DNA of 64,000 bases, from NCBI GenBank assembly GCA_031292625.1, contig JARLGU010000019.1, positions 1-64,000 of the forward strand, written 5' to 3'. The position numbers and the translations under genes are program-made. This DNA comes from Capsulimonadaceae bacterium. Lineage in GTDB: Bacteria; Armatimonadota; Armatimonadia; Armatimonadales; Capsulimonadaceae. Shown here piece by piece: positions 705 through 17,567 of this stretch (its first letter is position 1; each line of letters starts with the position of its first letter). The notes beneath the pieces are model-generated. The model saw only the letters and a program-made list of their open reading frames with translations, had not been told where the DNA came from and made no database searches.

Positions 705-1283
705 TCAGCCCCATTTAGAAATGCGCTTCGCCAGTTCGCTCGCGGTCATCGCGTGTCCGGCATCGTTGAAGTGAAGGCCGTCTGGCGCGTAATACCGCGC
801 CGGATCGCAATCGACCAATTCCCCGTACAGGTCCCAAGTCTCGTAGCCGGCATCCGCCGCGATGGACAGTGCGGCCGCCATGTACAAGGACAAGGTCTCC
901 TCCTGGACTCCCGTTCGCTCGCTTGAGACGGGAAAGGACGACGCAAAGAGCGAATGCTCGCCTTTGATCTGGCGCAGGATCCGCCGCAGATTGATCTCGT
1001 ACTCCGCAAGCGGAACACGCCGATCTTTACTATCGTCGCCCTTGCGCGGAACGTCGTTGCAGCCCAGCATAACGACTATGTCGCGCGGTACGAAGACGGC
1101 CGCGGTCTCGGCCCGCGCGAGCATATCGCGCGTCGTGTTGCCGCCGACGCCGAGGTTTACTCGCCGTTCATATCGGGCGATGGCGTCGCAACCCTCGAGG
1201 CGGTGAAAGAATCCTCCCGCCGAATCCCCCGCGCCTTCCATGGAAGACGCTCCAAACCCAACCAAAATCATACGATTCTCCAT
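705..1283 (-). CDS. SGNH/GDSL-family hydrolase
   Basis: A probable esterase/lipase-like hydrolase of the SGNH fold, 192 aa from the ATG at 1283. Block I is GFGASSMEG with the nucleophile serine at residue 13 or 14. Block II glycine lies in NLGVGGNTTRD, block III is GCND, and block V is DGLHFND with the catalytic Asp and His. No signal peptide is visible from this start, so it is probably cytoplasmic. The longer open frame (to 1385) overruns into the regulator's 3' region and looks unused. The gene follows the GntR/LacI regulator by 86 bp on the same strand and may be co-transcribed. Sugar de-esterification (deacetylation) is a plausible role in this glycan locus, but that is inference. Confidence 0.85.
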   Translation of the reverse strand: MENRMILVGFGASSMEGAGDSAGGFFHRLEGCDAIARYERRVNLGVGGNTTRDMLARAETAAVFVPRDIVVMLGCNDVPRKGDDSKDRRVPLAEYEINLRRILRQIKGEHSLFASSFPVSSERTGVQEETLSLYMAAALSIAADAGYETWDLYGELVDCDPARYYAPDGLHFNDAGHAMTASELAKRISKWG

Positions 1284-1369
1284 ATGGAATGATCCCTGAC
1301 GCTTTACGCCTTTAAGGCGCTTCGCGGCGCTCGGGATAGAGGCTTGCTCGTGATCGAGACGGCGCCCCG

Positions 1370-2476
1370 CTAGATCGCGCCGCACGTTTTGCGGACGATC
1401 AGGGGCATGGACAGGAGCACGTGCTGGTACGGCTGACGCCTTTTGCCAGCTTCCTCGATACGGCCCAGGGCGAGTTCCGCAGCCCTCTTGCCGATGAGTT
1501 CAAAAGGCTGGCGCATCGTGGTTAGAACCGGCGGGCGCGCGGAGTAGCGGTCGAGATCATCGAAGCCGACGACGCTCATGTCGCCAGGCACTGTCCGTCC
1601 CCTGGCCTCGAGCTCGCTGATGAAGAAATAGGCGAGCGGGTCGTTCATCGTCACCACTGCCGTCGGCGATTCGGGACACGCATCGAACTGGTCGATCGCC
1701 GGTGCGACCGCCGCGTAGTCGCGGTTTTGCGCCACGAAGAGCCAATCCTCGCTTGAAGGAAGGCTGCGGGCGGACAACGCCTCGAAATACGCTGCCTTTC
1801 TCTGGGTCGTCGGCATGTTGATTTCGTCGGTCGTTAGAAATCCGATCCTGCGATGGCCGAGCGAACTCAAATAGCCTACGGCCTCGTCGATCCCAGCCAT
1901 GTTGTCGCTGCCAACATAGTCGCACGAGAAGCCGTCGGGAATTCGGTCGACGAGGATTATCGCCTTCCCCTGCTCCTGCATGCGCCTTAGAAGCGGCACC
2001 GTTGCGCTTCCGCCCGATTGCCAGATGATCACCGCGACCAGGTCGTTTTGTCCAAGCGACTCGATCGCCTCCACTTCATGCTGCGTCGCGATCTCCGGCG
2101 ACGATCCATACGTATCGATGACTCGCAGAAAACAGGACGACTTCTTGGCCCTTAGCCCCATGTTGATCCCGTGGAGGATCGCCTGGGAAGCCGGGTAAAT
2201 CGGATGCTGCGGCATAATCGCCACAATCGTCGGAACGCTGGTCCGGCTCTCGGCGGTTGCAAGCGCGGCAATCGACGCCCCCGTCGTGTTGACCCAGGGT
2301 CTCGCTCCGCGCCGCCTGCTGATAATGCCTTCCGATTCGAGTTGGACGAACGCGCGGCGGACGGAAGAGCGATGCACATTGAATTCTTCCGCGAGCGCTC
2401 TTTCGGCCGGGAGCCACGCGCCAGGGGCATAGACCCCTTCGTCGATTCTTTTCTTAAGAATCAGGTAGAGCTCCAT
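1370..2476 (-). CDS. GntR-type HTH / LacI-type sensor transcriptional regulator (locus A)
   Basis: This is a 368-aa repressor/activator of the GntR-LacI hybrid type. Residues about 1-65 are a GntR winged helix (MELYLILKKRIDEGVYAPGAWLPAERALAEEF...VRRAFVQLESEGIISRRRG). The rest resembles LacI sugar-binding domains (VDRIPDGFSCDYVGSDNMAGIDEAVGYL, HRRIGFL, VVGFDDLDRYSARPPVLTTMRQP). I chose the ATG at 2476, with GACGAG upstream. The ATG at 2515 abuts the operator motif and lacks a ribosome-binding site. A consensus promoter and a TTGGTCC-N4-TGGTACA motif sit upstream, and the same motif follows the divergent promoter of the glycan operon. This suggests the protein represses itself and the operon until a sugar ligand binds. 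Confidence 0.88.
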   Translation of the reverse strand: MELYLILKKRIDEGVYAPGAWLPAERALAEEFNVHRSSVRRAFVQLESEGIISRRRGARPWVNTTGASIAALATAESRTSVPTIVAIMPQHPIYPASQAILHGINMGLRAKKSSCFLRVIDTYGSSPEIATQHEVEAIESLGQNDLVAVIIWQSGGSATVPLLRRMQEQGKAIILVDRIPDGFSCDYVGSDNMAGIDEAVGYLSSLGHRRIGFLTTDEINMPTTQRKAAYFEALSARSLPSSEDWLFVAQNRDYAAVAPAIDQFDACPESPTAVVTMNDPLAYFFISELEARGRTVPGDMSVVGFDDLDRYSARPPVLTTMRQPFELIGKRAAELALGRIEEAGKRRQPYQHVLLSMPLIVRKTCGAI

Positions 2477-2517
2477 CGGGCTCGTCTCAATTTGCTTAAC
2501 GAATGTTGTGATCATAA

Positions 2518-2536
2518 TGTACCAAACTGGACCAAC
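2518..2536 (-). promoter_or_regulatory. Putative operator of the locus A regulator (regulator side)
   Basis: The minus strand reads GTTGGTCC-AGTT-TGGTACA, two TGGTMC half-sites 11 bp apart in direct orientation. It lies just downstream of the -10 box of the regulator promoter. Fifteen of 19 positions match the element at 2691-2709 on the other side of the divergent region, with only the central 4 bp differing. Its position after the -10 suits repression. Confidence 0.6.
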
Positions 2537-2545
2537 GACAAGCTT

Positions 2546-2574
2546 ATTATCCCAGGCAGTCCGCCAAATGTCAA
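2546..2574 (-). promoter_or_regulatory. Sigma70 promoter of the locus A regulator
   Basis: TTGACA (2574-2569), a 17-bp spacer, then GATAAT (2551-2546) on the minus strand: close to the full consensus. The predicted start of transcription (about 2540) falls just before the operator motif. Confidence 0.75.
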
Positions 2575-2654
2575 GCAGTATTTTTCCGGCCAGTGATTGC
2601 CGCCGCACGATCACGACGCTCGAAAAATATTGGCGAGCTCCGTCTCAGCTCCTC

Positions 2655-2683
2655 TTGACAGAAAGCAGGGATGATGATACAAT
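2655..2683 (+). promoter_or_regulatory. Sigma70 promoter of the locus A glycan operon
   Basis: TTGACA (2655-2660), a 17-bp spacer and TACAAT (2678-2683). Transcription would begin near 2690. That rules out translation of the first pseudopilin from the upstream ATG at 2671 and supports the GTG at 2773. Confidence 0.75.
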
Positions 2684-2690
2684 GGCCACA

Positions 2691-2709
2691 GTTGGTCCCT
2701 AATGGTACA
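2691..2709 (+). promoter_or_regulatory. Putative operator of the locus A regulator (operon side)
   Basis: GTTGGTCC-CTAA-TGGTACA, the same 15 fixed positions as the element at 2518-2536. A third weaker half-site, TGGACA, follows 10 bp later (2713-2718). It lies directly behind the -10 of the operon promoter, at or just after the start of transcription. Confidence 0.6.
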
Positions 2710-2772
2710 GATTGGACAGTCAAGGATTGCTTTGTACTTTTCGACCAACAAACGATCTGGAGGGTTCCTTTT

Positions 2773-3663
2773 GTGAACGTCAGAAGATCCGCCAATACAG
2801 CCTTTACATTAATAGAACTCCTCGTTGTCATTGCAATAATTGCGATTCTTGCAGCAATTCTCTTCCCAGTGTTTGCGACTGCGCGGGAAAAGGCGCGGCA
2901 AAGCTCATGCGCCAGCAACGAAAAGCAGATCGCGCTGGCGATGGTTCAGTACGCGCAGGACTACGACGAAATGATGGTGCCCTATCGCCTCAGCTACACC
3001 GGCATCAACTCGTACAATTGTTGGACGGCGTGCGTCTATCCTTACGTAAAAAGCCTGAACGTGTTCATTTGCCCGAGCCAATCGTTTCAGGGAAGCCAGC
3101 TCGATTACACGTACAATGAAGCTGTCGGTTCGATTTGCAGCTCTAGTCAGGGCGGATGTGTTGGGAATCAGTCGATTACGCAAGTACAGTACCCAGCCAG
3201 CACGGTCACGATTACAGACGCCATGGGGGGAAGCGACAGCAGTGTCGCAAGCAACATCTCGTCCAGTACAAGCGGTGCGGCCTACTTTTTCGAGATTACG
3301 AGTTCCGTAAATGCTCAGTCTAATGCTTGGCCGTTTAGCGACGTGGGCGGAGGAGGCGGCGGATCCAACGTACTTGCCAACGCCTATGAATTAGGCAAGA
3401 TGGGCGGACCCAGTACAAACGGCAATACATGCGATGCAGAACCGTCCGCAACCCGCCACTCGGGCGGGGCAAACTACGCCTTTGTAGACGGCCACGTCAA
3501 GTGGTCCAGGGCCATTACATTCCCAAACGTCGCCGCGTTGAACAATACTTATCTCAATTGCACTCCGGCGCCCTGGCTTATGACCAATCAGGGGCCGCCT
3601 TCCAATGGCATGGTCTATCAATCGCAAGACGGCGCGATAGGCACGACTACTTACTACGAATAG
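2773..3663 (+). CDS. DUF1559-type pseudopilin A1
   Basis: A type IV pilin-like secreted/surface protein, 296 aa. The N-terminus has a short leader ending in Ala, then the class III signal [21 protein letters not shown], which is both prepilin cleavage site and membrane helix. [21 protein letters not shown] follows, and the C-terminus has [16 protein letters not shown], the H-X9-DG hallmark of the family. The GTG at 2773 has GGAGGG 8 nt upstream; an upstream ATG lies before the predicted transcription start. First gene of the locus A operon. The role of DUF1559 proteins is not established. Co-regulation with secreted glycosidases suggests glycan binding or surface display (inference). Residues 40-72 and the C-terminus are almost identical to A2. 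Confidence 0.9.
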
Positions 3664-3759
3664 CTAGCTTGCCGACGCGCCAGGGGTAGTTTCCGGCGAG
3701 GCGGCGGCAATACCAACTGCGGCAACAACTTTGCATTGCCTTATGGGAAGGTTTCCTTT

Positions 3760-4662
3760 ATGACTACCAAAATATCTCGAATGACAGCATTCACTTTGAT
3801 CGAATTGCTCGTAGTTATAGCGATTATTGCGATTTTAGCGGCAATTCTCTTTCCCGTGTTCGCGACTGCTCGCGAAAAGGCGCGGCAAAGCACATGCGCC
3901 AGCAACGAAAAGCAGATCGCGCTGGCGATGGTTCAGTACGCGCAGGACTACGACGAAATGATGGTGCCCTATCGCATTAACCAGTCCTTCAATTGTTGGC
4001 CGGCCTGCGTCTATCCCTACGTGAAGAGCTTGCAAGTGTTCACATGCCCAAGCCAATCGATTCAGGGTAGTCAGCTCGACTACACGTATAATTCAGCTGT
4101 AGCTTCGCTTTGCAGCTCTTATACTTACACGACTATTTCTGAAGGCTGTGTCGGAAATCAATCGATAACGCAAATACAATTCCCCGCCAACACGGTCACC
4201 GTTGCAGACGCCTTGAGCGGGACGAGCGTGACCGATTCGAGTGCCGCGGTAAGCATATCGTCGGCAACTAACGGGACGGCATACTATTTTGGCGTCAATA
4301 ATTCAGCAGGTGGTCAGCAACCTAATTTCGCGTCCAGCGATTTGGGGGCGGGAGGCGTCGGTTTGAACAGTGTCGGCACCGCCGGAGAAGTTGCCAAGGT
4401 GGCGGGTCCCGGTTCCAGCAATACACCATGCGAAGGTATTGTGGCGGCGATCCGGCACTCGGGAGGAGCTAACTACGCTTTTGTCGACGGTCATGTCAAG
4501 TGGTTTAGAGGCGCTACCTTCGCAGTATCTAATCCATGGAGCATTCAGAACACGAATTGCAACGGTGCGCCATTTAATGCGGCCAACCAGGCTCCGCCTT
4601 CCAGTGGCATGGTCTATCAATCGCAAGACAACGCGATAGGCACGACAACCTACTACGAATAG
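3760..4662 (+). CDS. DUF1559-type pseudopilin A2
   Basis: A 300-aa pseudopilin with leader [10 protein letters not shown], the [21 protein letters not shown] helix, and C-terminal [16 protein letters not shown], ending IGTTTYYE. The ATG at 3760 follows GGGAAGG by 8 nt; the upstream ATG at 3736 lacks a site. It is a recent duplicate of A1. About 100 bp behind the membrane helix (3880-3976 against 2890-2989) and the last 70 bp are nearly identical, while the middle has diverged strongly, as expected if only the assembly parts are under constraint or conversion. The middle part, rich in Ser/Thr/Asn/Gly, probably forms the exposed domain. Confidence 0.9.
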
Positions 4663-4764
4663 CCTGCATCTGGGTAACTATATGGATGTAGGTTCCGGCG
4701 CGGCGGTGAGCCGTATTTGGATGCGAGCTACCAGTTGCGATCCCCGATGAGGAGGGTTTCTTTT

Positions 4765-5583
4765 ATGACTACCAAAATATCTCGAAAGACAGCATTTACT
4801 CTTATAGAGCTTCTCGTTGTCATCGCCATTATTTCGATTCTTGCGGCTATTCTGTTTCCCGTTTTCGCGACGGCTCGCGAAAAGGCGCGCCAGACAACGT
4901 GCGCCAGCAACCTCAAGCAGATCGGACTCGCATTTGTGCAGTACTGTCAGGACAACGACGAAACATCGCTGCCGGTTCAATCTCCGGACACGGGGAACTC
5001 AGCGTGTACCAACCTGGTGTATTCGCCGGGAATGATACTCGCGCCTTACATAAAGTCGCCGAATGTTTGGATATGTCCGTCAGATACAATTGTGAGCCCC
5101 CTGTATTCCGCGAACTACTGCACTCTTATATCCAGCTCGGCGACATACAACTGCTACACGGAGGTCAGTTACGGATACAACGCCTACCTGATGGAGCAAT
5201 GGAAACTGGGAAATCCCAACGGGGTCACGACAGCCAATGCGCTTTGCGGCGCAATCACACCGGCCAAACTTTCACAGCTTACGACGCCTTCTCAGGACGG
5301 GCTGTTCTTTGCGGACCGTACCCAATGGGCAGGCTATCTGCTCGCCTGGGCCGCCAACTCATTTCTGATGGTGGAAGGTATCGACAACAACAACTATCAG
5401 AGCGAACAGCCGAATGGTCCGCAGCAGGGGCATAACGCAGGCGGGAACGTGGCGTATGCGGATGGCCATGTCAAGTGGCTGACCGGCAAGTTCCTTGGCG
5501 GCCAGCAGGTTATCGAGAACCAGAGCGGCAGCAACAGCGCGCGCGGCTTCGGAAGCACGACCCCCAACATTTACCACGAGTAG
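4765..5583 (+). CDS. DUF1559-type pseudopilin A3
   Basis: A 272-aa pseudopilin whose leader [10 protein letters not shown] is nearly the same as A2's. It continues [44 protein letters not shown] and has C-terminal [23 protein letters not shown] lies 9 nt before the ATG at 4765. The middle region ([16 protein letters not shown]...[14 protein letters not shown]) is shared with A4 but not with A1/A2, so the four genes form two pairs. Third gene of the operon. Confidence 0.9.
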
Positions 5584-5619
5584 GCAAGCCGGAGAAATAA
5601 GGATCTAAGGAGATTACAA

Positions 5620-6471
5620 ATGGCATCGAAGCCCTGCACCGAAAAGGCGTTCTCGCTCGGCGAGCTTCTCGTCGCGATCATGATTGTGGCGGTTCTGGCC
5701 GCTGCGCTCTTCCCGCTATTTGCACAAATTCGTGAGCGCGACAATCAGGCGACTTGCCAGAGCAACCTGAGCAAGATTAGCGCGGCGTTTGCGCAGTACA
5801 CGCAGGATTACGATCAAACGTCAGTCCTGGTTCTTAGCGGCGATAAGTGTACCAATTCCTTTGGCGCTGCAAAACTTACGCCGGGTATGGAGCTTGCTCC
5901 CTATCTTAAATCGACGAGCGTTTGGCGCTGTCCCGACGACACGGTTGCAAGCGATGACGATCCGAATACGGAAATCCCCGGCTCATACAATGGTTACAAC
6001 ATTATAAGCTATGGCTACAACGCTTACTTGATGCTGCAGTGGAAGTGCGGCGATCCGTGGGGCATGACGGACGCCAACCACGGAGATCATCCTTGCCATA
6101 ACACACTGGGCAAGACATCGCTCTGTGGCATGGTGACGCCAATCAAGATGTCGCAGCTCAAGACTCCTTCCAAGGACGGCATCTTCTTTGCGGATCGCGA
6201 TCAGTGGGGCGGATTTCTTCTTTCCGGGGCTCCCGAATCTCTAAAGAAGATCGAAGGCAACCCTCTAAACCCGTGGCCTAACGGAGTGCTCGGACACTCG
6301 AACGGCGGCTCGGTTGCCTATGCCGATGGACACGTTAAGTGGGTTTCCGGAAAGGATCTAGAAGATCAACGTCAAATCGAAATCGGCGTTGCCGGCAACT
6401 ACGCTGGATCCGGCGGTTACGATCCGAGTTTCCGGCCGTTCGGGGAGCACGCGACGATCTACCATGAGTAA
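5620..6471 (+). CDS. DUF1559-type pseudopilin A4 (divergent N-terminus)
   Basis: A 283-aa paralogue of A3, with a good site (TAAGGAG) before the ATG at 5620. The prepilin signal is degenerate: KAFSLGELLVAIMIVAVLAAALFPLF. The +5 Glu is kept, but the FTLIELL core is changed. The C-terminus has [16 protein letters not shown], and [19 protein letters not shown] matches A3. Extra Cys and His residues (KCTN, HGDHPCHNTLGKTSLCG) in the middle could bind a metal or form disulphides. Its stop codon supplies part of the ribosome-binding site of the next gene. Confidence 0.85.
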   Translation: MASKPCTEKAFSLGELLVAIMIVAVLAAALFPLFAQIRERDNQATCQSNLSKISAAFAQYTQDYDQTSVLVLSGDKCTNSFGAAKLTPGMELAPYLKSTSVWRCPDDTVASDDDPNTEIPGSYNGYNIISYGYNAYLMLQWKCGDPWGMTDANHGDHPCHNTLGKTSLCGMVTPIKMSQLKTPSKDGIFFADRDQWGGFLLSGAPESLKKIEGNPLNPWPNGVLGHSNGGSVAYADGHVKWVSGKDLEDQRQIEIGVAGNYAGSGGYDPSFRPFGEHATIYHE

Positions 6472-6481
6472 GGAACCTACA

Positions 6482-8146
6482 GTGACAAGCTACACTAGGC
6501 GACAGCTCTTTCGCACCGGCGTCGGAGCTTTGAGCGCGGCAGCTCTGATACATTTGTCTGGACAGGACGGCGAACAGCCAGCATTAGCGTCCACAACCAA
6601 AGGGACAGCGCTTCCGGCGGCAGGACCATCGGTCGCGCGTATCGAGCGTATCAACGGCATTCCGACCTTCATTGTCGATGGTCAGCCGTTTCTAATCAAC
6701 GGCTCCCATCTAAACACGTGGCAGGCGTACCATCAAGACAAGCCGGTGGTCGATTTCTTCGACTGGTGCCAGCGCGTCAACTGCACAGCCGTCGGGATGG
6801 AGCTGTACTGGTCGTTCATCGAAACTAGCGAAGGCGTCTACGACTTCTCGTCGCTCAATTGGATCATCAAGCAGTCCGAGGCGCATGGGCTCAAACTCGT
6901 CCTTCAGCTTTACAACAGCAACGTCTGCGGAACCATCGAGAACGGATCGGATGCGCATCCCGATCCCGTATGGGTGCCCAAGTACATTCGGGAGGCTCCC
7001 GATAAGTACCAGCGCATCGTCCTGCCGCCCGATTGCGAGAAGCTCTACGTGTCCAGCGGACCACCCATGTGTCCGAACGACCCGCGCACGCTCGAACGCG
7101 AGCGGAAGTACATGGTCCGGCTTGCGGACTATCTGCGGGAGCACGATCGGAACCGCACGGTTATCATGGCGCAAGTGAACAACGAATACGTATGTTGGGT
7201 CTACAAGGGCTCTCCGGAAGGCAATTTCGATTGGACAAGAGTGCCCGATGGCCGCGGGGTTCGCTGCATCTGCCCCTATTGCGACGCCAAGTGGAACGCG
7301 GGATACGGCGGGAACTGCTATGAGTTCATGTACGACAGCTTTGCGGATTATACGCGCGTCTTGAGCGATGCTTTTCGCGCGGACTATCCGCTGCCGCTCT
7401 ATCTCAACAGTCCCGGTATCCCGCCCGATCAGATCCGCGGCTATCTCGGCAAGTGTCCGAATATCGCAATCGTTGGCATCGACGAGGTCATCGACCCGCA
7501 CGAGCCCAACGAGCTGTGCGCCGGACAGGTCTGCCGCAACATTGCGTTTGCTGCAGAGGTTCCGACGCAGAGGCCCAAAACGCGCTTTTTCATCGATGTT
7601 CTGCCGTACTATTTTGTGATTGGTCTCCTTGGCATCGGTCACCTTCTCTGGGACGCGCCGCCGCCGGATCGCGCATCGGAGGATGAGGATGTCAGCCGCC
7701 GCTATGAGCAGGCGCTGTATCCGCTGAAATATGCCCAATCGCTGATTGCTCGCTATCGTGGAACGGCGCAGCTTTCCGCTTGGTATGCGCTGCGAGACTT
7801 CGAGAGCGACTATCCGCAAAGCACGTTCGTCCGCGAGGGGGCAATGACGAGGATCGAGAGCCTCTCGAACAGGGCCTATGTCCACGATATTCAGATTGGC
7901 AACCGCATGATCAGCGTCCGCGCCAGCGAGGCGGGCGTCGCGATCGCGCCGTCGGAGAATGTGCTGGTGATCGGAACGCCGCGTGCGAGCATCGATCTCA
8001 AGGGCGTTCGCGTCGCCAGCGTCGAGAACGGGCAGTATGTGGGCGATGCGTGGCATTCGATGGGGGCGTTTGCCTTCGAGAAGCGCGCCGACGGAGCACG
8101 CCTTCAGATTCGCGAGCCGAGTGTTTTGAGAATTCAGTTCGCATGA
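6482..8146 (+). CDS. Tat-exported GH35/GH42-like glycosidase, paralogue 1
   Basis: A probable exported beta-galactosidase-like hydrolase, 554 aa from the GTG at 6482 (TAAGGA 8 nt upstream, overlapping the stop of A4). The N-terminus carries a twin-arginine signal, YTRRQLFRTGVGALSAAALI. The TIM-barrel begins near PTFIVDGQPFLINGSHL; EGVYDF and LVLQLYNSNV follow. The likely acid/base is Glu235 in AQVNNEYV, which matches the NEY signature of GH35/GH42. A candidate nucleophile is Glu359 in AFAAEVP. The C-terminal part looks like a small beta domain. About three quarters identical to the next gene, with long identical stretches at the C-terminus. The exact GH family and substrate cannot be fixed from sequence alone. 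Confidence 0.8.
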   Translation: MTSYTRRQLFRTGVGALSAAALIHLSGQDGEQPALASTTKGTALPAAGPSVARIERINGIPTFIVDGQPFLINGSHLNTWQAYHQDKPVVDFFDWCQRVNCTAVGMELYWSFIETSEGVYDFSSLNWIIKQSEAHGLKLVLQLYNSNVCGTIENGSDAHPDPVWVPKYIREAPDKYQRIVLPPDCEKLYVSSGPPMCPNDPRTLERERKYMVRLADYLREHDRNRTVIMAQVNNEYVCWVYKGSPEGNFDWTRVPDGRGVRCICPYCDAKWNAGYGGNCYEFMYDSFADYTRVLSDAFRADYPLPLYLNSPGIPPDQIRGYLGKCPNIAIVGIDEVIDPHEPNELCAGQVCRNIAFAAEVPTQRPKTRFFIDVLPYYFVIGLLGIGHLLWDAPPPDRASEDEDVSRRYEQALYPLKYAQSLIARYRGTAQLSAWYALRDFESDYPQSTFVREGAMTRIESLSNRAYVHDIQIGNRMISVRASEAGVAIAPSENVLVIGTPRASIDLKGVRVASVENGQYVGDAWHSMGAFAFEKRADGARLQIREPSVLRIQFA

Positions 8147-8156
8147 GGGCAGAGTT

Positions 8157-9821
8157 ATGAGCGGCACGAAAATACAATCAGCACCGCGTTTGTCGCGGCG
8201 GGATCTTCTGGCTGCAGGGGCTGGCGCGATTGTCTTAGCCTCAACCAGAGCGTTTGCGGGTACGCCTCTGACGTCCGGCCCCTCCGTCGCGCGCATCGAG
8301 CGCATCAACGGCATTCCGACCTTCATTGTCGATGGTCAGCCGTTTCTAATCAACGGCTCGCACCTAAACTCGTGGCAAGCGTTCCGTCAAGATAGCACGA
8401 CGGTTGAGTTTTTCGACTGGTGCCAGCGAGTCAACTGTACAGCCGTCGGGATGGAGCTGTACTGGGGGATTGTGGAGCCAAGTGAGGGCGTCTACGATTT
8501 CACGTCGCTGGACTGGCTGATCAAGCAATCCGAAGCGCGAGATCTCAAGCTTGTTCTTCAGTTATACAACAGCAATGTGTGCGGCACACTGGGGAACAAT
8601 CCCGATCCGCCTGCGCATCCGGTTTCTGTTCCTAAGTACATCCTGGACGCTCCCGATAAATATCAGCGAATCGTTCTGCAGCCAGATTGCCAAAAGCTGT
8701 ACGTTGCAGGCGGACCGCCGATGTGTCCTAACGACCCGCGAACTCTTCAGCGAGAGCACTTGTATATGACGGCGCTTGCCCGCTACCTGCGCGAACACGA
8801 CAAGAACCGCACGGTTATTCTGGCTCAGGTAAACAACGAGTACATGTACCGTGTCTTCAAGGGTGAGAACGCCGCAGGATTCGATTGGACGAGAGTGCCG
8901 GATGCGCGCGGTGTTCGCTGCATCTGTCCCTATTGCAACGCCAAGTGGAACGCGGGATATGGCGGGAACTGCTACGAGTTCATGTATGACAGCTTTGCGG
9001 ACTATACGCGCGTCCTCAGCGACGTCTTTCGCGCCGTGTATCCGTTGCCGCTCTACCTTAACAGCCCGACCTTACAACCGGCTCAGGTTCGCACATTTCT
9101 CGATCGTTGCCCGAACATCGCGATCGTGGGGGCCGACGGCATCGACGATCCGCACGAACCCAACGATATGTCGGCGGCTCAGGTGGGGCGAAATATTGCG
9201 TTTGCGGCCGAGATGCCTACCGAGCATCCGCGCACGGATTTCTATATCGATGTCCTGCCGTATTACCTCGCGATCGGCCGCCTGGGAGTCGGACACTTGC
9301 TTTGGGACGCCCTGCCGCCCCATCGTGTAGCCGATGACGTAGACAAGAGCCGCCGCTACGAGCAGGCCCTGTATCCGCTCAAATATGCCCAATCGCTGAT
9401 CGCTCGCTATCGCGGGACGCCGCAGCTTTCCGCTTGGTATGCGCTGCGAGACTTCGAGAGCGACTATCCGCAAAGCACGTTCGTTCGCGAGGGGGCAATG
9501 ACGAGGATCGAGAGCCTTTCGAATAGGGCCTATGTCCACGATATTCAGATTGGCGGCCGAGTGATCAGCGTCCGCGCCAGCGAGGCGGGCGTCGCGATCG
9601 CGCCGTCGGAAAATGTGCTGGTGATCGGAACGCCGCGTGCGAGCATCGACCTCAAGGGCGTTCGCGTCGCCAGCGTCGAGAACGGGCAGTATATCGGCGA
9701 CGTGTGGCGTTCGATCGGATCGTATCCGTTTGAAGCGCGCGCCGACGGGATCAGGCTCGATATCCGTGAGCCAGGGGTCCTACGAGTGCTAATCCAAGGA
9801 GGCGGCGCCGCCGCTCGGTGA
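8157..9821 (+). CDS. Tat-exported GH35/GH42-like glycosidase, paralogue 2
   Basis: A 554-aa paralogue of the preceding gene, with Tat signal LSRRDLLAAGAGAIVLASTRAFA and probable cleavage after AFA. Likely acid/base is Glu228 (AQVNNEYM) and candidate nucleophile Glu352 (AFAAEMP). It starts 11 bp after the previous stop. The segment GPSVARIERINGIPTFIVDG and the C-terminal 130 residues are almost the same in both copies. That points to recent duplication or gene conversion, while the middle has drifted and may give a different specificity. Confidence 0.8.
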   Translation: MSGTKIQSAPRLSRRDLLAAGAGAIVLASTRAFAGTPLTSGPSVARIERINGIPTFIVDGQPFLINGSHLNSWQAFRQDSTTVEFFDWCQRVNCTAVGMELYWGIVEPSEGVYDFTSLDWLIKQSEARDLKLVLQLYNSNVCGTLGNNPDPPAHPVSVPKYILDAPDKYQRIVLQPDCQKLYVAGGPPMCPNDPRTLQREHLYMTALARYLREHDKNRTVILAQVNNEYMYRVFKGENAAGFDWTRVPDARGVRCICPYCNAKWNAGYGGNCYEFMYDSFADYTRVLSDVFRAVYPLPLYLNSPTLQPAQVRTFLDRCPNIAIVGADGIDDPHEPNDMSAAQVGRNIAFAAEMPTEHPRTDFYIDVLPYYLAIGRLGVGHLLWDALPPHRVADDVDKSRRYEQALYPLKYAQSLIARYRGTPQLSAWYALRDFESDYPQSTFVREGAMTRIESLSNRAYVHDIQIGGRVISVRASEAGVAIAPSENVLVIGTPRASIDLKGVRVASVENGQYIGDVWRSIGSYPFEARADGIRLDIREPGVLRVLIQGGGAAAR

Positions 9822-11440
9822 TATTTATGGACGAACAAATGAGAACGAAACTTGAGGCGCCTGGGATTACCCGGCGCGATCTTCTACGCGCCGCACTGGG
9901 CGCGGCCGCATTTGCCGGCATTGCGCAGTTTACGGGCAGGGACGCGATGGCGGATATTGACAGCGCCACGGCAGGCGCGCGCAGCCGGATCGCTGTTTTG
10001 AACGGCTGCCCGACACTTCTGGTCGACGACGTCCCGCTTCTAATCGCGGGCTCGCAGATCGATGGGCGCAGCGTTTATCACAATGACGATTGCATAACGT
10101 TCTTCGATGGTCTCGCGGAAATGAATGCGACCGTGATTGGGATCTCGATACCGTGGGACAGTGTCGAGGTTGCCGAAGGACGGTACGATTTTTCTACCGT
10201 CGATTGGTTCATCCGGCAGGCCGAGCAGCGCGGGCTGAAGGTGATCTTCAACCTTGCAAACACGAACATCTGCGGAAAGGTGCAGGAAGGATCCGATGCC
10301 CGTGCGATCTATCACTACGTTCCGGCTTACATCCGTTCCGCGCCCGATGATTATCAACGCGTCGTGTTCTCGCCTGGCCTGACGCCGCAGGGGGGAGCGC
10401 CGCCAATGTGTCCGAACGATCCGCGCACCCTCGAACGGGAGCGCCTTTATGTGGAGCGCTTGGCGAAATATCTGCAATCTCGCGATACCCATGCGACCGT
10501 CGTGATGCTGCAGCTCGAAAATTCGGCCAACTATACCGCTTGGGAGGCTCCCGGCCCGAATAGGCCCGCTGATGAGCGTTGCCGCTGCCGTTATTGCGAC
10601 GCCAAATGGGCGTCGGCGACGTATGCCAACGGCCAGGCGTTCATGACCAGGAGCTTTGCGGATTATGTCGAAGTGCTCGCAAAGGCGGTCACGGATAGTC
10701 ATCCGCTGCCGGTTTTCGTGAACAACTGGTCTGCGGAAGCGGCCCGGATTATCCTCGACGCCGCGCCGCATATCTCGCTTGTCTCTGGCCATCTGCTCGA
10801 TCCGCATGAGCCAAACGGCATTAGTACCCTCTCCGTAGGGCGCAACATGCTCTTCGCCTCAGAGGCTTGGACGCATATGCCGAGTGTTCGATTCTATCTC
10901 GACGCGTTGCCGTTCTATACCCTGGCCGCGCGCCCTGGCTTAGGGCTGACTCTCTGGGATCCGGGCGGCGAGAAGTCGATCGTCTATGACGGCGATTTGG
11001 TATCGAGGCTCTCTGACGCGCTCTATCCTGTCAAAAATGCCCAGTGTCTGATCGCCGCGCACAGAGGCACTAGCCGCCTTGCCGCCTGGAGCGTGCTTCG
11101 CGATCAAACCTGGCAGGTCGCGAGCCCTATGAACGTCGTCGAGAACGGCAATACGCGGACCGTGCGCAACGAAACCATTGAGGTTGCGCTTGGCGACGCC
11201 GTTCTACGCATTTCTGGGAGCGCGACCGGTTATGCCGTCCGCCCCACTGCCGGAGAGCTTTTCCTGTGTCTATCATCCGGGCATGTTGTCGTCCGAGGCA
11301 AGCCGGTCGCATCGGCTGCTAGAGGCAGCTTTGAGGGCAACAGGTGGATCGCAGGTTCTCCCATTTCCTTCGTGAAGCAAGGGGATGGATATGTGATCGA
11401 CACGCAGAGCCCAGCCGTGATCCGGATCGTTCTTTCGTAG
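9818..11440 (+). CDS. Tat-exported GH35/GH42-like protein, paralogue 3, acid/base residue lost
   Basis: A 540-aa diverged third copy with Tat signal ITRRDLLRAALGAAAFAG. The start is uncertain: GTG 9818 overlaps the previous stop by 4 nt, ATG 9827 follows in frame, and AAGGAGG lies 15 nt before the GTG. The barrel features are kept (EGRYDFSTVDWFIRQAEQRGLKVIFNLANTNICG), as is the candidate nucleophile (Glu349, LFASEAW). At the place of the acid/base NNEY, however, the sequence reads LENSAN, so Ser236 replaces the catalytic Glu. It may be a non-catalytic sugar-binding protein or use a different mechanism. Retention in the operon with an intact frame argues for a function. Confidence 0.78.
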   Translation: MIFMDEQMRTKLEAPGITRRDLLRAALGAAAFAGIAQFTGRDAMADIDSATAGARSRIAVLNGCPTLLVDDVPLLIAGSQIDGRSVYHNDDCITFFDGLAEMNATVIGISIPWDSVEVAEGRYDFSTVDWFIRQAEQRGLKVIFNLANTNICGKVQEGSDARAIYHYVPAYIRSAPDDYQRVVFSPGLTPQGGAPPMCPNDPRTLERERLYVERLAKYLQSRDTHATVVMLQLENSANYTAWEAPGPNRPADERCRCRYCDAKWASATYANGQAFMTRSFADYVEVLAKAVTDSHPLPVFVNNWSAEAARIILDAAPHISLVSGHLLDPHEPNGISTLSVGRNMLFASEAWTHMPSVRFYLDALPFYTLAARPGLGLTLWDPGGEKSIVYDGDLVSRLSDALYPVKNAQCLIAAHRGTSRLAAWSVLRDQTWQVASPMNVVENGNTRTVRNETIEVALGDAVLRISGSATGYAVRPTAGELFLCLSSGHVVVRGKPVASAARGSFEGNRWIAGSPISFVKQGDGYVIDTQSPAVIRIVLS

Positions 11441-11480
11441 GGGAATCAAGGGAATCGCGAGTGCGATCCCAACAGACAAG

Positions 11481-13472
11481 ATGGCGATAATATCTACCAA
11501 GACAACAAAAACAGACAATATCGGAAAGACAATCGAAAGCTTTCCCCGCACGAAGCTGGCTATTTGGCGATCGGTGTTGATCGGGGCGCTGCTTATACCG
11601 CTTAATGTCCTTTGGGTGACCATATCGGAAGTTCGCTGGTACAACCTGGACGGCACCTGTCTGCCGCTCTTCATCGAACCGGTCTTCTTCCTCTTCCTGC
11701 TCGTGCTGGCGAACATGGCGTACAAGCGCCTTGCAAAGCAGCCTGACGCTGGGTTGCGGCAGGAAGAGATGTTGATCGTCTACATCATGCTCGTCACATC
11801 GTGCGCCTTTTGCGGACACGACACCCTGCAGAACCTGTTCGGCTGCATCACGCATCCATTCTGGTTCGCCAACGCGAGCAATCGCTGGCAGCAGCTCTTT
11901 CTTCACTATCTGCCAAGCTGGCTCTACGTCAATGACAGCACCGCTCTCACCGGATGGTACAACGGCGGCGTCAACATCTATTCCGCCGATGCCCACCGCT
12001 ACTTGGCGCCGTGGATTGTGCCGCTGGCTGCGTGGGGAGTGCTGTTTCTGACGCTCTACGGGATGTACCTGTGCATCACGATACTCATTCGCCGGGCGTG
12101 GGTCGAAAGCGAGAAGCTCTCGTTCCCGATCGTTCAGCTCCCACTGGCGATGACGGCCGAGAATGCGCCGGCGGCCTTTTTCGGAAACCGCGTCATGTGG
12201 GCGGGGTTCCTCGTCGCGGCGACGATTTCAACGCTGAACGGCATTCACACATTGACCCCATCCGTGCCGCAGCTCAATGTCAAGCTATTCGACATACAGC
12301 CCTATTTCACGACGCCGCCATGGAACTCGATCGGAATGACGAATACGTCGTTCTATCCGTTTATGATCGGTCTAGCCTACTTCATGCCGCTGGATCTGTC
12401 GCTTTCGTGTTGGTCGTTCTATCTGTTCGCCAAGGCGTTTCGCATCTACGGCGCGGCAAACGGCTACTTCTCGGGAGCGCAAGGCTTTCCGTTCTTCGGC
12501 GAGCAGGCGACGGGAGCATGGCTCGGCATTGCGCTCATGCTGCTGTACTCAAGCCGGCACTACTGGAAGGGCGTTCTCATCAGCGCGTGGCAGGGGCTAA
12601 GCGCGGACGATCCGGCGGAGGCAGTGCGATACCGGTTTGCCATGGGCGGATTGGTCGCGGGGACGATTGTGCTGAGCGTGTTTACGGCCTTGATCGGAAT
12701 GAGCATTTGGGTCGGAGTCGGGCTCTTCGCGATCATATTTTTGCTCGGCTTTGTCATAACCCGTGTTCGCGCCGAGTTCGGCTGCCCGCATGAGATCTCC
12801 TGGTGCAATCCATGCCAGATCCTTGTCGGAGTGTTCGGAACGCAGGCAATCGGGCCGCAGAACCTGACGCTTCTTTCGGCGCTCTATTGGTTCAACCGGT
12901 GTTACCGCAACCACCCCATGCCGAATCAACTTGAAGCGTTTAAGATGCTGGACAACAAGCGCGTCACGTTCGGTTCGACAATCGCGGTTCTGGTCCTGTC
13001 CGCGTTCCTGGCGCTTGGAGTGACATACTGGGCCAATCTTCACGTAACTTACGCCGCAGGCGCCGCGGCGCAGGCGGTTGGCTATAAGGGCTTTGTCGGC
13101 AAGGAGACGTTCGACCGGCTGGGCAGTTGGCTCACGATGACCACGCCTCCCGCAAGCCGCGGCATGTACTATATGGTGGGCGGCTTCGTATTCGCGGTCG
13201 TTCTCCTCATCATGCGAAACACCCTGGAGTGGTGGCCGCTGCATCCAACGGGCTACGCGCTGGCGCTTTCGTTTGCGATGGAGTATTTCTGGCTCCCCGT
13301 CTTTATCGCGTGGTTCGTCAAGTTCGTCGTAATGCGTTACGGCGGTGCGAAGCTTTACCGCGCCACGATCCCCTTTTTCCTTGGCCTCATTTTGGGCGAC
13401 TACACGGTCGGTTCTCTCTGGTCGCTCACCGGATGCCTGGGAGGATTTCTCACTTACAAAATCTACATCTAA
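11481..13472 (+). CDS. Large polytopic membrane protein (DUF6785/DUF6784-like)
   Basis: A 663-aa integral membrane protein with roughly a dozen hydrophobic helices (for example LLIPLNVLWVTISEV, PVFFLFLLVLANMAY, WGVLFLTLYGMYLCITILI, FFLGLILGDYTVGSLWSL). Layout and motifs (EEMLIVYIMLVTSCAFCGHDTLQN, VESEKLSFPIVQLPLAMT, GLGDY-like GLILGDYTVGS) resemble DUF6785/DUF6784 proteins of Armatimonadota and Planctomycetota, which recall oligopeptide-transporter-like carriers. Its place between exported glycosidases and cytoplasmic sugar enzymes makes it the likely importer of the released oligosaccharide (inference). No strong ribosome-binding site precedes the ATG at 11481. Confidence 0.75.
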   Translation: MAIISTKTTKTDNIGKTIESFPRTKLAIWRSVLIGALLIPLNVLWVTISEVRWYNLDGTCLPLFIEPVFFLFLLVLANMAYKRLAKQPDAGLRQEEMLIVYIMLVTSCAFCGHDTLQNLFGCITHPFWFANASNRWQQLFLHYLPSWLYVNDSTALTGWYNGGVNIYSADAHRYLAPWIVPLAAWGVLFLTLYGMYLCITILIRRAWVESEKLSFPIVQLPLAMTAENAPAAFFGNRVMWAGFLVAATISTLNGIHTLTPSVPQLNVKLFDIQPYFTTPPWNSIGMTNTSFYPFMIGLAYFMPLDLSLSCWSFYLFAKAFRIYGAANGYFSGAQGFPFFGEQATGAWLGIALMLLYSSRHYWKGVLISAWQGLSADDPAEAVRYRFAMGGLVAGTIVLSVFTALIGMSIWVGVGLFAIIFLLGFVITRVRAEFGCPHEISWCNPCQILVGVFGTQAIGPQNLTLLSALYWFNRCYRNHPMPNQLEAFKMLDNKRVTFGSTIAVLVLSAFLALGVTYWANLHVTYAAGAAAQAVGYKGFVGKETFDRLGSWLTMTTPPASRGMYYMVGGFVFAVVLLIMRNTLEWWPLHPTGYALALSFAMEYFWLPVFIAWFVKFVVMRYGGAKLYRATIPFFLGLILGDYTVGSLWSLTGCLGGFLTYKIYI

Positions 13473-13502
13473 ACGCCATTTCGGCGGATGAAAGGAAACA
13501 CT

Positions 13503-14552
13503 ATGCCAAAGCATTTGGTAGCAGTTGCGCCCAGAACAACGGCGCTCAAGAATTATGAGGACCGCGAAATGCGCTCCGACGAGGTCAAGATCCAAATCGA
13601 ATACGCCTCGCCCAAACACGGAACGGAGCTTGCGGCCTTTCGAGGCGAGAGCCCCCATATCGCCGACCACTACGACGAGGAATGGCACGCATTTCTGCCC
13701 CGGGAAGACAAGGCGGGCGATCCGTTCGATGGGCACTGGGTTTTAGGCAATCAGTTCGTCGGCACGATCGTCGAGGCTGGTTCGGACGCGAAGGGCTTTT
13801 CGATCGGCGAGCGGGTGTGCGGCTACGGCGGAATCGCCGAGACTCATATCTCGTCGATCAATGACTTGCTAAAAATGCCTGAGTCCATGTCCTGGCAGAA
13901 CGCCGTCTGCTATGATCCTGCGCAATTCGCCCTCGGCGGCGTGCGCGACGGCGGGGTAAAGCTCGGCGACACCGTGGCCGTAATCGGCCTGGGCGCTATC
14001 GGGCAAGTGGCGGCTCAGTTTGCCCGTCTGGCCGGCGCCAGCTACGTCGCCGTCATCGACCCCATCGAGAAGCGGCGCGCGTGCGCTCTTGCGGCGGGAG
14101 CCAATGCGGCGTTCGATCCGACGGCGGTCGATGCGGGGCTCGAACTAAAAAAGGCGACGGGGAAGCGCGGAGTGGATGTCATTATCGAAACAAGCGCGAG
14201 CGAGGCGGCTCTTCAAGCGGCCCTTCGCGGCCTCATCTTTAGCGGCACGATCGCTTTTGTCGGCTGGGCCCGTCCCTTCCGCAGCGGTTTGGATTTGGGA
14301 CGCGAGGCGCATTTCAACAACGCCAATATCGTATTCACCCGCGCGGTAAGCACGCCGCTTCGAGAGCATCCGCGGTGGACGTTTGAGCGGATCTGCCAGA
14401 CATGCTGGCAAATCCTTTCGGACGGCAGAATCGACTGCAAAGATATTATCGATCCCGTGATCCCGTTTGCAAACGCGGCAGGAGCATACGAGGAGTATGT
14501 GGATCGGCATCCCGACCGAAGCATCAAGCTGGGGTTCTCGTTCGAAAAGTAG
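13503..14552 (+). CDS. MDR-family (alcohol dehydrogenase-like) oxidoreductase
   Basis: A 349-aa NAD(P)-dependent medium-chain dehydrogenase. The N-terminal GroES-like domain has GNQFVGTIVEAGSDAKGFSIGERVCGYGGIAETH. The Rossmann fold has AVIGLGAIGQVAAQFARLAGASYVAVIDP. The usual zinc-ligand set of alcohol dehydrogenases is not obvious, so it may be zinc-independent or act on a sugar/polyol. AAAGGA lies 6 nt before the ATG at 13503; an upstream in-frame ATG at 13488 has no site. Probably oxidises a sugar or sugar acid released by the operon's glycosidases. Confidence 0.82.
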   Translation: MPKHLVAVAPRTTALKNYEDREMRSDEVKIQIEYASPKHGTELAAFRGESPHIADHYDEEWHAFLPREDKAGDPFDGHWVLGNQFVGTIVEAGSDAKGFSIGERVCGYGGIAETHISSINDLLKMPESMSWQNAVCYDPAQFALGGVRDGGVKLGDTVAVIGLGAIGQVAAQFARLAGASYVAVIDPIEKRRACALAAGANAAFDPTAVDAGLELKKATGKRGVDVIIETSASEAALQAALRGLIFSGTIAFVGWARPFRSGLDLGREAHFNNANIVFTRAVSTPLREHPRWTFERICQTCWQILSDGRIDCKDIIDPVIPFANAAGAYEEYVDRHPDRSIKLGFSFEK

Positions 14553-14566
14553 ACTGGACAATACAT

Positions 14567-15355
14567 ATGAAACAATCATTCACCTGGTGGTCGTTCGCAG
14601 GCCGGGGCATCGGCGACGACGATTTGCTCGCGGGGGCTCGGAAGATCGGCTATGAAGGAGTCGAACTCCTTCCCCCTGCGCTCTTTGAACGGGCGCGCGA
14701 CTACGGTTTTACGATCGCCAGCCATGGCGGACACGAATCGATCGAGGCCGGGTTCAACAACCCGGCCGATCATGACCGGATCGTTCGCGAGATTGAGGCG
14801 AACCTTAAACTGGCTGTGAAATTCGGCATCCCGAACCTGATCGTCTTTAGCGGAAACCGGCGGATTGGGCAGAGCGATGCCGAGGGAGCGCGTGTTGTAG
14901 CCGAAGGCGTCCGCCGAATCGTCCGCGCCGCGGAAGAGGCTGGCGTGACGCTCGTCATGGAACTGCTCAATAGCAAGGTCGATCATCCGGGCTATCAGTG
15001 CGACCATTCGAGCTGGCTTATGCCCATCATCGACGAGATCGATTCGCCGAAGTTCAAGGCGCTCTACGATGTCTATCACATGCAGATCATGGAAGGCGAT
15101 CTGGTGCGCACATTTGAGGCCAACGTGGCCAGAATCGCGCATGTTCACACCGCGGGCAATCCGGGCAGGAACGAGCTGGTCGGGACAAAGCAGGAAATCT
15201 TCTATCCCGCCGTCTTTCGTGGAATAGCAACATCGGGCTACGACGGCTTCGTTTGCCACGAACTTATTCCCACCGGGAGTCCGCTGGACGCCTTGCGCGA
15301 GGCATATGAGCTGTGCCGTGAAGCCGCCAAGCAGGCCCTTGCATCGGGCGCCTGA
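14567..15355 (+). CDS. Hydroxypyruvate isomerase-like TIM-barrel protein
   Basis: 262 aa of the xylose isomerase-like/Hyi superfamily, which interconverts small keto- and aldo-sugars. Family marks are ASHGGHESIEAGFNNPADHDR, VTLVMELLNSKVDHPGYQCD (metal/catalytic Glu), YDVYHMQIMEGDL, HVHTAGNPGRNEL and GFVCHELIP (second Glu). The start at 14567 follows the dehydrogenase stop by 14 bp; the frame is open further upstream inside the dehydrogenase but that part is not coding-like. The pairing with an oxidoreductase suggests the pair handles one sugar derivative. Confidence 0.82.
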   Translation: MKQSFTWWSFAGRGIGDDDLLAGARKIGYEGVELLPPALFERARDYGFTIASHGGHESIEAGFNNPADHDRIVREIEANLKLAVKFGIPNLIVFSGNRRIGQSDAEGARVVAEGVRRIVRAAEEAGVTLVMELLNSKVDHPGYQCDHSSWLMPIIDEIDSPKFKALYDVYHMQIMEGDLVRTFEANVARIAHVHTAGNPGRNELVGTKQEIFYPAVFRGIATSGYDGFVCHELIPTGSPLDALREAYELCREAAKQALASGA

Positions 15356-15406
15356 GCGGGCGGATTCGTTTGCGATCAAATCCAATTTGTGAATGGACCG
15401 AGAAAT

Positions 15407-17518
15407 ATGACGGAAGTAAAAACAGTACACATCATCTTCAATGCTCATATCGACCCGATCTGGCTTTGGCCGTGGCAGAGCGGGCTCGACGAAACCTTGG
15501 CGACCTGCCGGAGCGCTTGTGACAGGCTGGATAGACACCCTGACCTGACGTTCAGCCGAGGAGAAGCATGGGTCTACCAGCAGGTCGAAAGGCTCGCCCC
15601 CGAGTTGTTCGCGCGAATCAAGAGCCATATCGAAGCGGGTCGCTGGGAGATCGTCGGGGGCTGGTGGATTCAGCCGGACTGCAATCAGCCGAGCGGATTT
15701 GCCCTCGAAAGGCAGATTTCGGTCGGGAAGGACTATTTCCAGAGCCGCTTCAACCTCTTCCCTCGAATTGCCTACAACGTAGATACGTTTGGACACTCCG
15801 CCGCCCTGCCTGGAATAATGCGCGAGGCCGGGCAGGACCAATACGTGATGATGCGGCCCGAGCAGCATGAGATGGCCTTGCCGTCGAATCTGTTCCGGTG
15901 GCGCGGCTACGAAGGCAGCCCGGAGGTCGTTACCTACAGAATTCCCGGCGGCTATGCAAACGGGCCGCACGATAATGTCGACCGGATTCAGCAAGTGGCC
16001 GACGCGATCGATCCGCGAATCGGCCACGGCATGCTCTTTACCGGCATAGGCGATCATGGCGGCGGCCCGACCGAAACGGCCATTGCCTGGTACCGCGAGC
16101 ACTGGAACGATTTTCCTGGCATTCGCCTGGAGTTCTCGACCCCGTCGCGATTCTTCGATGCCATATGGGCAAAAAAAGAGTCGCTGCCGCTGGTCACGGG
16201 CGAACTGCAGCAACACGCGATCGGCTGCTATAGCGTCCACCGTCCGATAAAGACGTCCTTGCGCCATGCCGAGCATCTCGTTGCTCAGGCGGACCTCGCC
16301 CTGCGCCGCGAGCAAGATCTTCTGCCCAAGGGCTCGGCGGCTTCTATCGAAGAGAGCTGGAAGAAGATCGCCTTCTGTCAGTTCCACGACACATTGGGCG
16401 GCACGTGCCTGCCGTCGGCTTATGCACAGCCGATCGCACAGCTCGGCTTCGCGGCAAGCGTCGCGGACGATCTGCTCCAGAACGCGCTTCGCCTCAAGAT
16501 GCGTGCGTTGCCCGACGATACGCACCAGCGGATCGTGCTCTACAATGCGTCGGATCGCCTCTTCGACGGCCCGGTTCAGCATTCGCCGTGGATGGATTGG
16601 AAACGGTGGCAACCTGGCTGGCGCCTGGTCGACGAGAGCGGGCATCGCGTCGCTGTGCAAACGATGGACAGCGAGGCTGTCGTCGACATATCGCCGCAGC
16701 TTCTATTTTGGGCAAAGGTCGAAGCCGGCAAAATGCAGGTGCTCCGCATCGTGGAGAGTGACGACGCTTCGCCGTCCAAGGACGCGACGGAACATCTCGC
16801 ATTTCCAGGAGATGGGATTGTCCTTCCCGGCGGGGTGCGCCTTGAAGCCCCGGCGCTCGAACTCATCGATGACCGCTCGGACACGTGGTCGCATGGTATC
16901 GACCGGTACAACGCCGCAATCGAAGCGACCGCATCGTGGTCGGACCCAGTAGGTGTCGACAATGGACCGCTCATGTCTTCGTGGACGCGGCGGGGGCAGA
17001 TCGGCAAGAGCGAGCTGACGGCGGAGTGGCGCACCTACAAGGGTCATTTCGAGGAACTCAGGCTCACTGTCGAGTGGGTTGAGCATCACAAGCTGCTCAA
17101 ATTAACCGTGCCGTTTCCCGCCGGAGTGACGAGGCGTACGGACGGGATCGTCACCGGCTGGCTGCATCGTCCGCTCGATGGGCGGGAATTGCCTGTGCGT
17201 GACGGGGTGATCTTTGAAGGGGCGGCTGGCAAACTCGGCATTGCGTGTCCGGATGTGTACGCTTTGGATGCGACTGCGGAGCGGGCTCGTTTCACGTTGC
17301 TTCGCTCGCCAATCCTTGCGCATCACGATCCGCACGGCGTCGAGGCGCCCAGAAGGACCTTCTCCGACCGCGGCGAGCATACATTCACGTTCCGCTTCTT
17401 CGGCGGCGGCAGCGTCACGTCGGATCTGATTGACGATCATGCCTATCAAATCCAGCGCCCGCTGATCGCTGCAGACCTCACGCGGGGAATGACCTTCCGG
17501 CGGGGAGAGATCGGCTGA
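15407..17518 (+). CDS. GH38 alpha-mannosidase-like hydrolase (703 aa)
   Basis: A GH38-type zinc glycosidase without a signal peptide. Zinc ligands His14 and Asp16 lie in NAHIDPIWLWPW. The nucleophile Asp126 lies in YNVDTFGHSAALPG. GIGDHGGGP and FCQFHDTLGGTC (His327/Asp328) complete the site. The C-terminal beta-sandwich is present but shorter than in typical GH38 proteins of 850-1050 aa. I chose the ATG at 15407 (in-frame GTG at 15389). It is followed by a second, full-length GH38 gene, so two cytoplasmic mannosidase-like enzymes of different size finish this operon. Imported oligosaccharides are the likely substrates. Confidence 0.85.
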   Translation: MTEVKTVHIIFNAHIDPIWLWPWQSGLDETLATCRSACDRLDRHPDLTFSRGEAWVYQQVERLAPELFARIKSHIEAGRWEIVGGWWIQPDCNQPSGFALERQISVGKDYFQSRFNLFPRIAYNVDTFGHSAALPGIMREAGQDQYVMMRPEQHEMALPSNLFRWRGYEGSPEVVTYRIPGGYANGPHDNVDRIQQVADAIDPRIGHGMLFTGIGDHGGGPTETAIAWYREHWNDFPGIRLEFSTPSRFFDAIWAKKESLPLVTGELQQHAIGCYSVHRPIKTSLRHAEHLVAQADLALRREQDLLPKGSAASIEESWKKIAFCQFHDTLGGTCLPSAYAQPIAQLGFAASVADDLLQNALRLKMRALPDDTHQRIVLYNASDRLFDGPVQHSPWMDWKRWQPGWRLVDESGHRVAVQTMDSEAVVDISPQLLFWAKVEAGKMQVLRIVESDDASPSKDATEHLAFPGDGIVLPGGVRLEAPALELIDDRSDTWSHGIDRYNAAIEATASWSDPVGVDNGPLMSSWTRRGQIGKSELTAEWRTYKGHFEELRLTVEWVEHHKLLKLTVPFPAGVTRRTDGIVTGWLHRPLDGRELPVRDGVIFEGAAGKLGIACPDVYALDATAERARFTLLRSPILAHHDPHGVEAPRRTFSDRGEHTFTFRFFGGGSVTSDLIDDHAYQIQRPLIAADLTRGMTFRRGEIG

Positions 17519-17567
17519 TAGAAGCTCAAGGTCCGCGCCGGCTAGAACATGTAGGAAAAACGAGAGT

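Follow-up and report, generated by a model that had tools for sequence, protein, structure and literature searches.

Direct-repeat box arrays at one helical turn as predicted operators of an AraR-type GntR regulator in a Capsulimonadaceae bacterium

Operators built of direct repeats are known for a few GntR proteins, those on record being the sites of NanR, NagQ, FarR and the MocR proteins (PMC4494728, PMC5320631). In Escherichia coli, three NanR dimers bind cooperatively to three direct GGTATA repeats located downstream of the polymerase site (PMC8012715), and the site of GabR, ATACCA, is the complement of TGGTAT (PMC4494728). AraR-type chimeras, which join a GntR DNA-binding part to a LacI-like sensor, have been described with palindromes. 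For AraR, pairs of in-phase operators are known, and the helix-2 glutamate and recognition arginines are E30, R41 and R45 (PMC4218819). The open-licence literature that we searched yielded no direct-repeat array for AraR-type GntR-LacI chimeras.

We analyzed a stretch of 64,000 nucleotides (the window) from contig C46 of a Capsulimonadaceae genome (G000), in which a regulator gene faces a long run of genes on the opposite strand (Table 1). According to Pfam, the regulator combines an N-terminal GntR winged helix (PF00392, 1.3e-16) with a C-terminal GalR/LacI-type periplasmic-binding sensor (PF13377, 4e-28), and with both domains in place it belongs to the GntR family with AraR subfamily architecture. 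LacI-family structures are its best PDB matches; its HTH matches solved GntR-family structures including PdhR, YvoA, NanR and AraR, the match to the AraR DNA-binding-domain structure 4egy being weak (E 0.0025). The LacI-type HTH PF00356 is absent among its Pfam matches, GntR being found there instead. An earlier note on this DNA had called the protein LacI-type, which is true of the sensor alone and wrong for the DNA-binding part. A LacI-type operator is thereby ruled out, and any surprise at the arrangement of the sites has to be judged against GntR and AraR operators. The same note began the gene at 2476; the start is more probably ATG 2515-2513, because the reading frame extends without a stop beyond 2476 and the regulator, its paralogue and other homologues have in common an '(S)P' directly before the HTH. 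Residues E25, R36 and R40 of the 368-residue form probably correspond to E30, R41 and R45 of AraR.

Table 1. Predicted features around the two facing promoters of the window.
Feature	Position	Strand	Basis
-35 TTGACA, regulator promoter	2569..2574	-	promoter search
-10 GATAAT, extended (TG before), regulator promoter	2546..2551	-	promoter search
-35 TTGACA, operon promoter	2655..2660	+	promoter search
-10 TACAAT, extended (TG before), operon promoter	2678..2683	+	promoter search
Operator box 1, regulator side, TGGTCCAGTT	2525..2534	-	sequence, box scan
Operator box 2, regulator side, TGGTACATTA	2515..2524	-	sequence, box scan
Degenerate third box, regulator side, TGATCACAAC	2505..2514	-	box scan
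Operator box 1, operon side, TGGCCACAGT; first base is the last of the -10	2683..2692	+	
Operator box 2, operon side, TGGTCCCTAA	2693..2702	+	
Operator box 3, operon side, TGGTACAGAT	2703..2712	+	
Operator box 4, operon side, TGGACAGTCA	2713..2722	+	
Operator box 5, operon side, weak, in 10-bp register, AGGATTGCTT	2723..2732	+	
Regulator gene, 381 aa, GntR winged helix and LacI-like periplasmic-binding sensor	1370..2515	-	Pfam
GDSL esterase-like gene, overlaps end of regulator gene	705..1385	-	ORFs, Pfam
DUF1559 prepilin-like protein, first gene of facing operon	2773..3663	+	Pfam N_methyl + SBP_bac_10
Remaining facing gene run, putative operon	3736..20636	+	ORFs all on +, Pfam

The regulator promoter reads TTGACA-17-GATAAT on the minus strand (2574 to 2546) and that of the facing operon TTGACA-17-TACAAT on the plus strand (2655 to 2683). 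Both score 11/12 with the TG of an extended -10, and strong promoters of this type number two in the window against 0.3 in shuffles. Behind each -10 lies one copy of GTTGGTCC-N4-TGGTACA (2518-2536, minus; 2691-2709, plus), as the earlier note had it: GTTGGTCCNNNNTGGTACA has these two exact matches in the window and none in 100 shuffles. It was also right that 15 of the 19 positions are fixed, all variation falling on the four central bases, which differ at 4/4 positions (AGTT vs CTAA). With the leading G dropped, the remaining 18-base core has exact copies in the 5.77-Mb genome at these two places only, and its two-mismatch matches are at about background, which rules out a wider regulon reached through the exact motif.

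The half-sites repeat every 10 bp (TGGTCC at 2693, TGGTAC at 2703) and not every 11 bp as first stated, and the notion of direct repeats at one helical turn is well supported by the arrays. The description of the element as two half-sites was incomplete, since the site is an array of three to five boxes. On the operon side, five TGG/AGG boxes form a strict 10-bp chain that begins on the final base of the -10 and was reached in 0/2000 shuffles; the four-box pattern TGG-N7 x4 has one match in the window and none in 100 shuffles. On the regulator side, two strict boxes are followed by a weak third (TGATCA at 2514), and this array taken alone is weak (shuffle p 0.044). The third box may not be real, because it shares bases with the probable start codon; at regulator promoters, the place of a third box can be that of the start codon. 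No array was found upstream of the other DUF1559 prepilin-like genes of the window (minus strand, near 46759, 51489 and 55491).

The first facing gene likely starts at GTG 2773, behind GGAGGG. Judged by Pfam, the genes that follow it encode more prepilin-like proteins, GH42-like, DUF6785/DUF6784, Zn-dehydrogenase and xylose-isomerase-like products, and two GH38 alpha-mannosidases. The part at 15389-20636 (plus), with the two adjoining GH38 alpha-mannosidases, three GH42-like paralogues and DUF6785/DUF6784, is likely a mannoside or glycan degradation island. Behind the regulator gene, the GDSL esterase-like gene is probably co-transcribed with it, so that the predicted operator would probably control this gene too, given the overlap. 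More generally, very many core GntR-sensor regulators have a DUF1559 prepilin-like gene at a distance of at most a few kb, in divergent, upstream or downstream position (e.g., L039, L042-L045, L103, L111-L123), and the partnership between sugar regulator and prepilin is recurrent.

The earlier note had proposed a search for the motif in relatives with the orthologous regulator, its absence there being the refuting outcome; the motif proved not to be lacking, arrays being present at a paralogous locus and in another family. The closest homologue (60% identical) is encoded in the same genome, on contig C12, again at a divergent locus, where prepilin-like and GH42-like genes (the latter about 52% to the window's) face the regulator gene. 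The 280-bp intergenic region has three-box arrays behind both -10s with a box sequence of its own. The array of the regulator promoter reads TGGTTGATTA.AGGTTCATTA.TGG, that of the prepilin promoter TGGTTGCTAA.TGGTTGAACA.TGG. With up to two mismatches, the joint pattern of this locus occurs at these two places of the genome only, and the reversed control gave 0. In the other family, the regulator of genome G063 (43% identical) has five-box arrays at its own promoter (TATAATGGTGCAGTTTTGGTGAGATCTGGAGCAAATGAGGTGACATCTGG, boxes at 0, 11, 21, 32 and 42) and at the neighboring prepilin promoter 1.35 kb upstream (AGGTTAGATTTGGTAAAATCTGGAAAGATTGAGGTGAAAGCTGG, boxes at 0, 10, 20, 31 and 41). Three-box arrays are also found at TATACT for the G002 regulator (46%) and at TATAAT for the G025 regulator (35%), and a weaker likeness between regulator and target operators is seen in G002 (L044) and G068 (L224). 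Regulator and target operators are identical at 18, 18 and 23 of 31 positions within loci and at 11-15 between loci, which is what cognate sites would give. The arrays are conserved as matched pairs with locus-specific words, and their presence in relatives supports well the proposal that they are matched operators through which the adjacent regulator would control itself and the facing operon.

In the upstream regions of 35 non-redundant core regulators, direct TGG-TGG pairs at 10, 11, 20, 21 and 31 bp were observed 7, 6, 6, 6 and 6 times, with about 1.2-1.5 expected for each, and TGGT-TGGT at 10 bp was observed four times with 0.09 expected. No spacing of inverted TGG..CCA or TGGT..ACCA rose above the shuffle maxima across core regulators, and no enrichment of direct TGG-TGG was found upstream of 27 distant GntR-sensor regulators. 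A three-box scan (p<=0.05) called arrays for 20 of 61 core regulators, near-identical orthologues being among the 61, versus 0 of 28 distant ones, so that direct arrays are not general among GntR-sensor regulators. These statistics on regulator promoters include some of the sequences from which the hypothesis was formed; the tests on target promoters are free of this overlap. Among prepilin-gene promoters near core regulators, mostly outside the sequences that shaped the hypothesis, 9/43 reached p<=0.05; several of the array-negative genes immediately follow the regulator gene and may lack their own promoter.

The window regulator falls in a six-member clade (support 95/94) with arrays in 5/5 members having upstream sequence, and array labels change four times on the tree, none of 500 shuffles (average 6.7) being as low. 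Most core regulators outside this clade have no clear array, so the architecture is not universal in the subfamily. In the f24 genomes (L107, L108, L128), inverted TGGT-N3-ACCA palindromes lie behind the promoter; in the f5 genomes (L111-L117), a conserved TTTTGGTATATTTGGA is found within the -10 of orthologous regulator promoters, with TGG boxes 9 bp apart; several others show no clear array. Direct arrays throughout the core subfamily are thereby ruled out. L107 gave one array-like call, yet lies inside the inverted-repeat group. L108 has two such palindromes in head-to-tail order, and the 9-bp spacing of the f5 boxes is near that of NanR. A strict search for a -10 followed by four boxes in 291 genomes of the phylum returned the window site and three matches, about chance level; the exact four-box form is rare and therefore no general search key. 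At G288:C296:6904-6941 (L244), a site from the phylum-wide pattern search, the -10 precedes four TGG boxes, of which two read GTGG. A scan of genome contigs yielded mostly distant LacI-type matches and no further array.

We consider it probable that the regulator acts as an autorepressor and as a repressor of the local operon, binding one-turn direct-repeat arrays at both promoters, probably cooperatively, until a sugar releases it. It would recognize the repeated word (W)TGGT at its own promoter and at that of the facing glycan-degradation operon, in a row of boxes, one for each helical turn (10 bp), which extends from the end of the -10 across the transcript start; this phasing puts every box on one side of the helix. 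Regulator units would load side by side, probably cooperatively as in E. coli NanR, would block RNA polymerase at both promoters, and would be released by a sugar or oligosaccharide held in the sensor domain. One-turn phasing favors such side-by-side cooperative loading, as for NanR (PMC8012715). Repression by blocking polymerase is suggested by the boxes, which span the -10 to about +40, and for Caldicellulosiruptor, sites of AraR and of LacI-type proteins that overlie promoters or lie in leaders were likewise read as blocking (PMC8579813). The sensor fold, together with two GH38, GH42-like and sugar-isomerase-like genes, suggests a sugar as the inducer. More tentatively, as a view that we find possible without favoring it, a clade of GntR-LacI chimeras may have given up the palindrome for an open-ended row on three to five boxes, one unit per turn, the words of paralogues having diverged into a private array code for each sugar locus.

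The regulator could also bind in the usual GntR manner, as a symmetric dimer on a palindrome that is degenerate or hidden, in which case the additional direct boxes would be leftovers or weak half-sites. Characterized AraR, FadR and HutC proteins are indeed found mostly on palindromes (PMC4494728), the f24 relatives carry theirs within the same subfamily, and the box TGGTCCA is by itself nearly self-complementary. Nevertheless, the enrichment upstream of core regulators concerns direct spacings and no inverted one, which rules out hidden inverted repeats as far as they were sought, and the compared operators of the array clade show no recurring ACCA partner, making a palindrome-bound dimer unlikely. 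The sites might instead belong to MraZ, whose sites downstream of promoters are direct repeats with a period of about 10 bp; its ownership was considered because one of the genome's exact TGGT triple matches, on contig C28, proved to be the mraZ promoter. This promoter has an array of four TGG boxes from the -10 (L227:2330-2383; G000:C28, about 24329-24382), in the same 10-bp phase and with the same -10 placement, and mraZ arrays are a useful positive control showing that 10-bp arrays are used in these bacteria. However, the mraZ arrays of five relatives, also in 10-bp phase, mostly read RGTGG, whereas boxes of the array clade are ATGG, TTGG, CTGG, AAGG, TAGG or GAGG and never GTGG, and their words vary by locus yet agree inside each regulator/target pair. 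MraZ was rejected as owner on the box word, and we give this reading very little chance.

Even less credence is due to a function of the repeats in RNA, as a 5' leader element or in translational control. Most boxes are indeed located in the leader, past the predicted start site, but operon-side box 1 overlaps the -10 and is therefore outside the transcript, an Rfam search gave one chance-level match and none above chance, and a 10-bp helical phase is a property of DNA. Least credible of all is a paired motif due to chance or to a recent functionless duplication. Local inverted copying could yield two 19-base words; the four central bases and the flanks nonetheless differ between the copies, an argument against recent copying, and the same arrangement recurs at independent loci whose words are different, so that the comparative data contradict both.

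Provided that the predicted operators are genuine, what is new here is one whole AraR-type clade with one-turn arrays of up to five boxes. Relatives one step away, on palindromes or 9-bp pairs, would complete a natural series in which a dimeric regulator passes from inverted to direct sites. The window and its paralogue offer cognate regulator/box pairs for reading the recognition code, and the arrays could serve as a practical target-finding rule for many such regulators in Armatimonadota genomes.

The arrays resemble the MraZ sites of these genomes in their direct boxes, 10-bp phase and position downstream of the -10; they differ in box word, that of MraZ being RGTGG, and the MraZ fold is unrelated to that of the regulator. 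MocR proteins (GabR, TauR, PdxR) share with the regulator GntR winged helices and direct repeats on one helix face (PMC5320631), but their sensor is aminotransferase-like and their repeats are separated by two or three turns, in many cases accompanied by an inverted box. Bacillus subtilis AraR, a GntR-LacI chimera, is alike in domain architecture, in its carbohydrate locus and as a repressor. Its operators are palindromic with both monomers in contact, whereas those of the array clade are direct repeats only; the palindrome typical of characterized AraR, which is no part of the domain-based definition of the subfamily, is absent from this clade. Finally, NanR, a member of the FadR subfamily, likewise pairs a GntR winged helix with TGGT-type direct repeats just downstream of a promoter, and the window has at least three such boxes downstream of the -10. 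Nevertheless, the NanR repeats of the MG1655 nanA leader (TGGTATAACAGGTATAAAGGTATA) are spaced by 9 and 8 bp and number only three, against a full turn of 10 bp in the window array and five boxes on its operon side; the sensor of NanR is FadR-type and that of the window regulator LacI-like; and the cooperativity of NanR comes from an N-terminal extension of 32 residues, where the window regulator has about 13 extra residues before its HTH.
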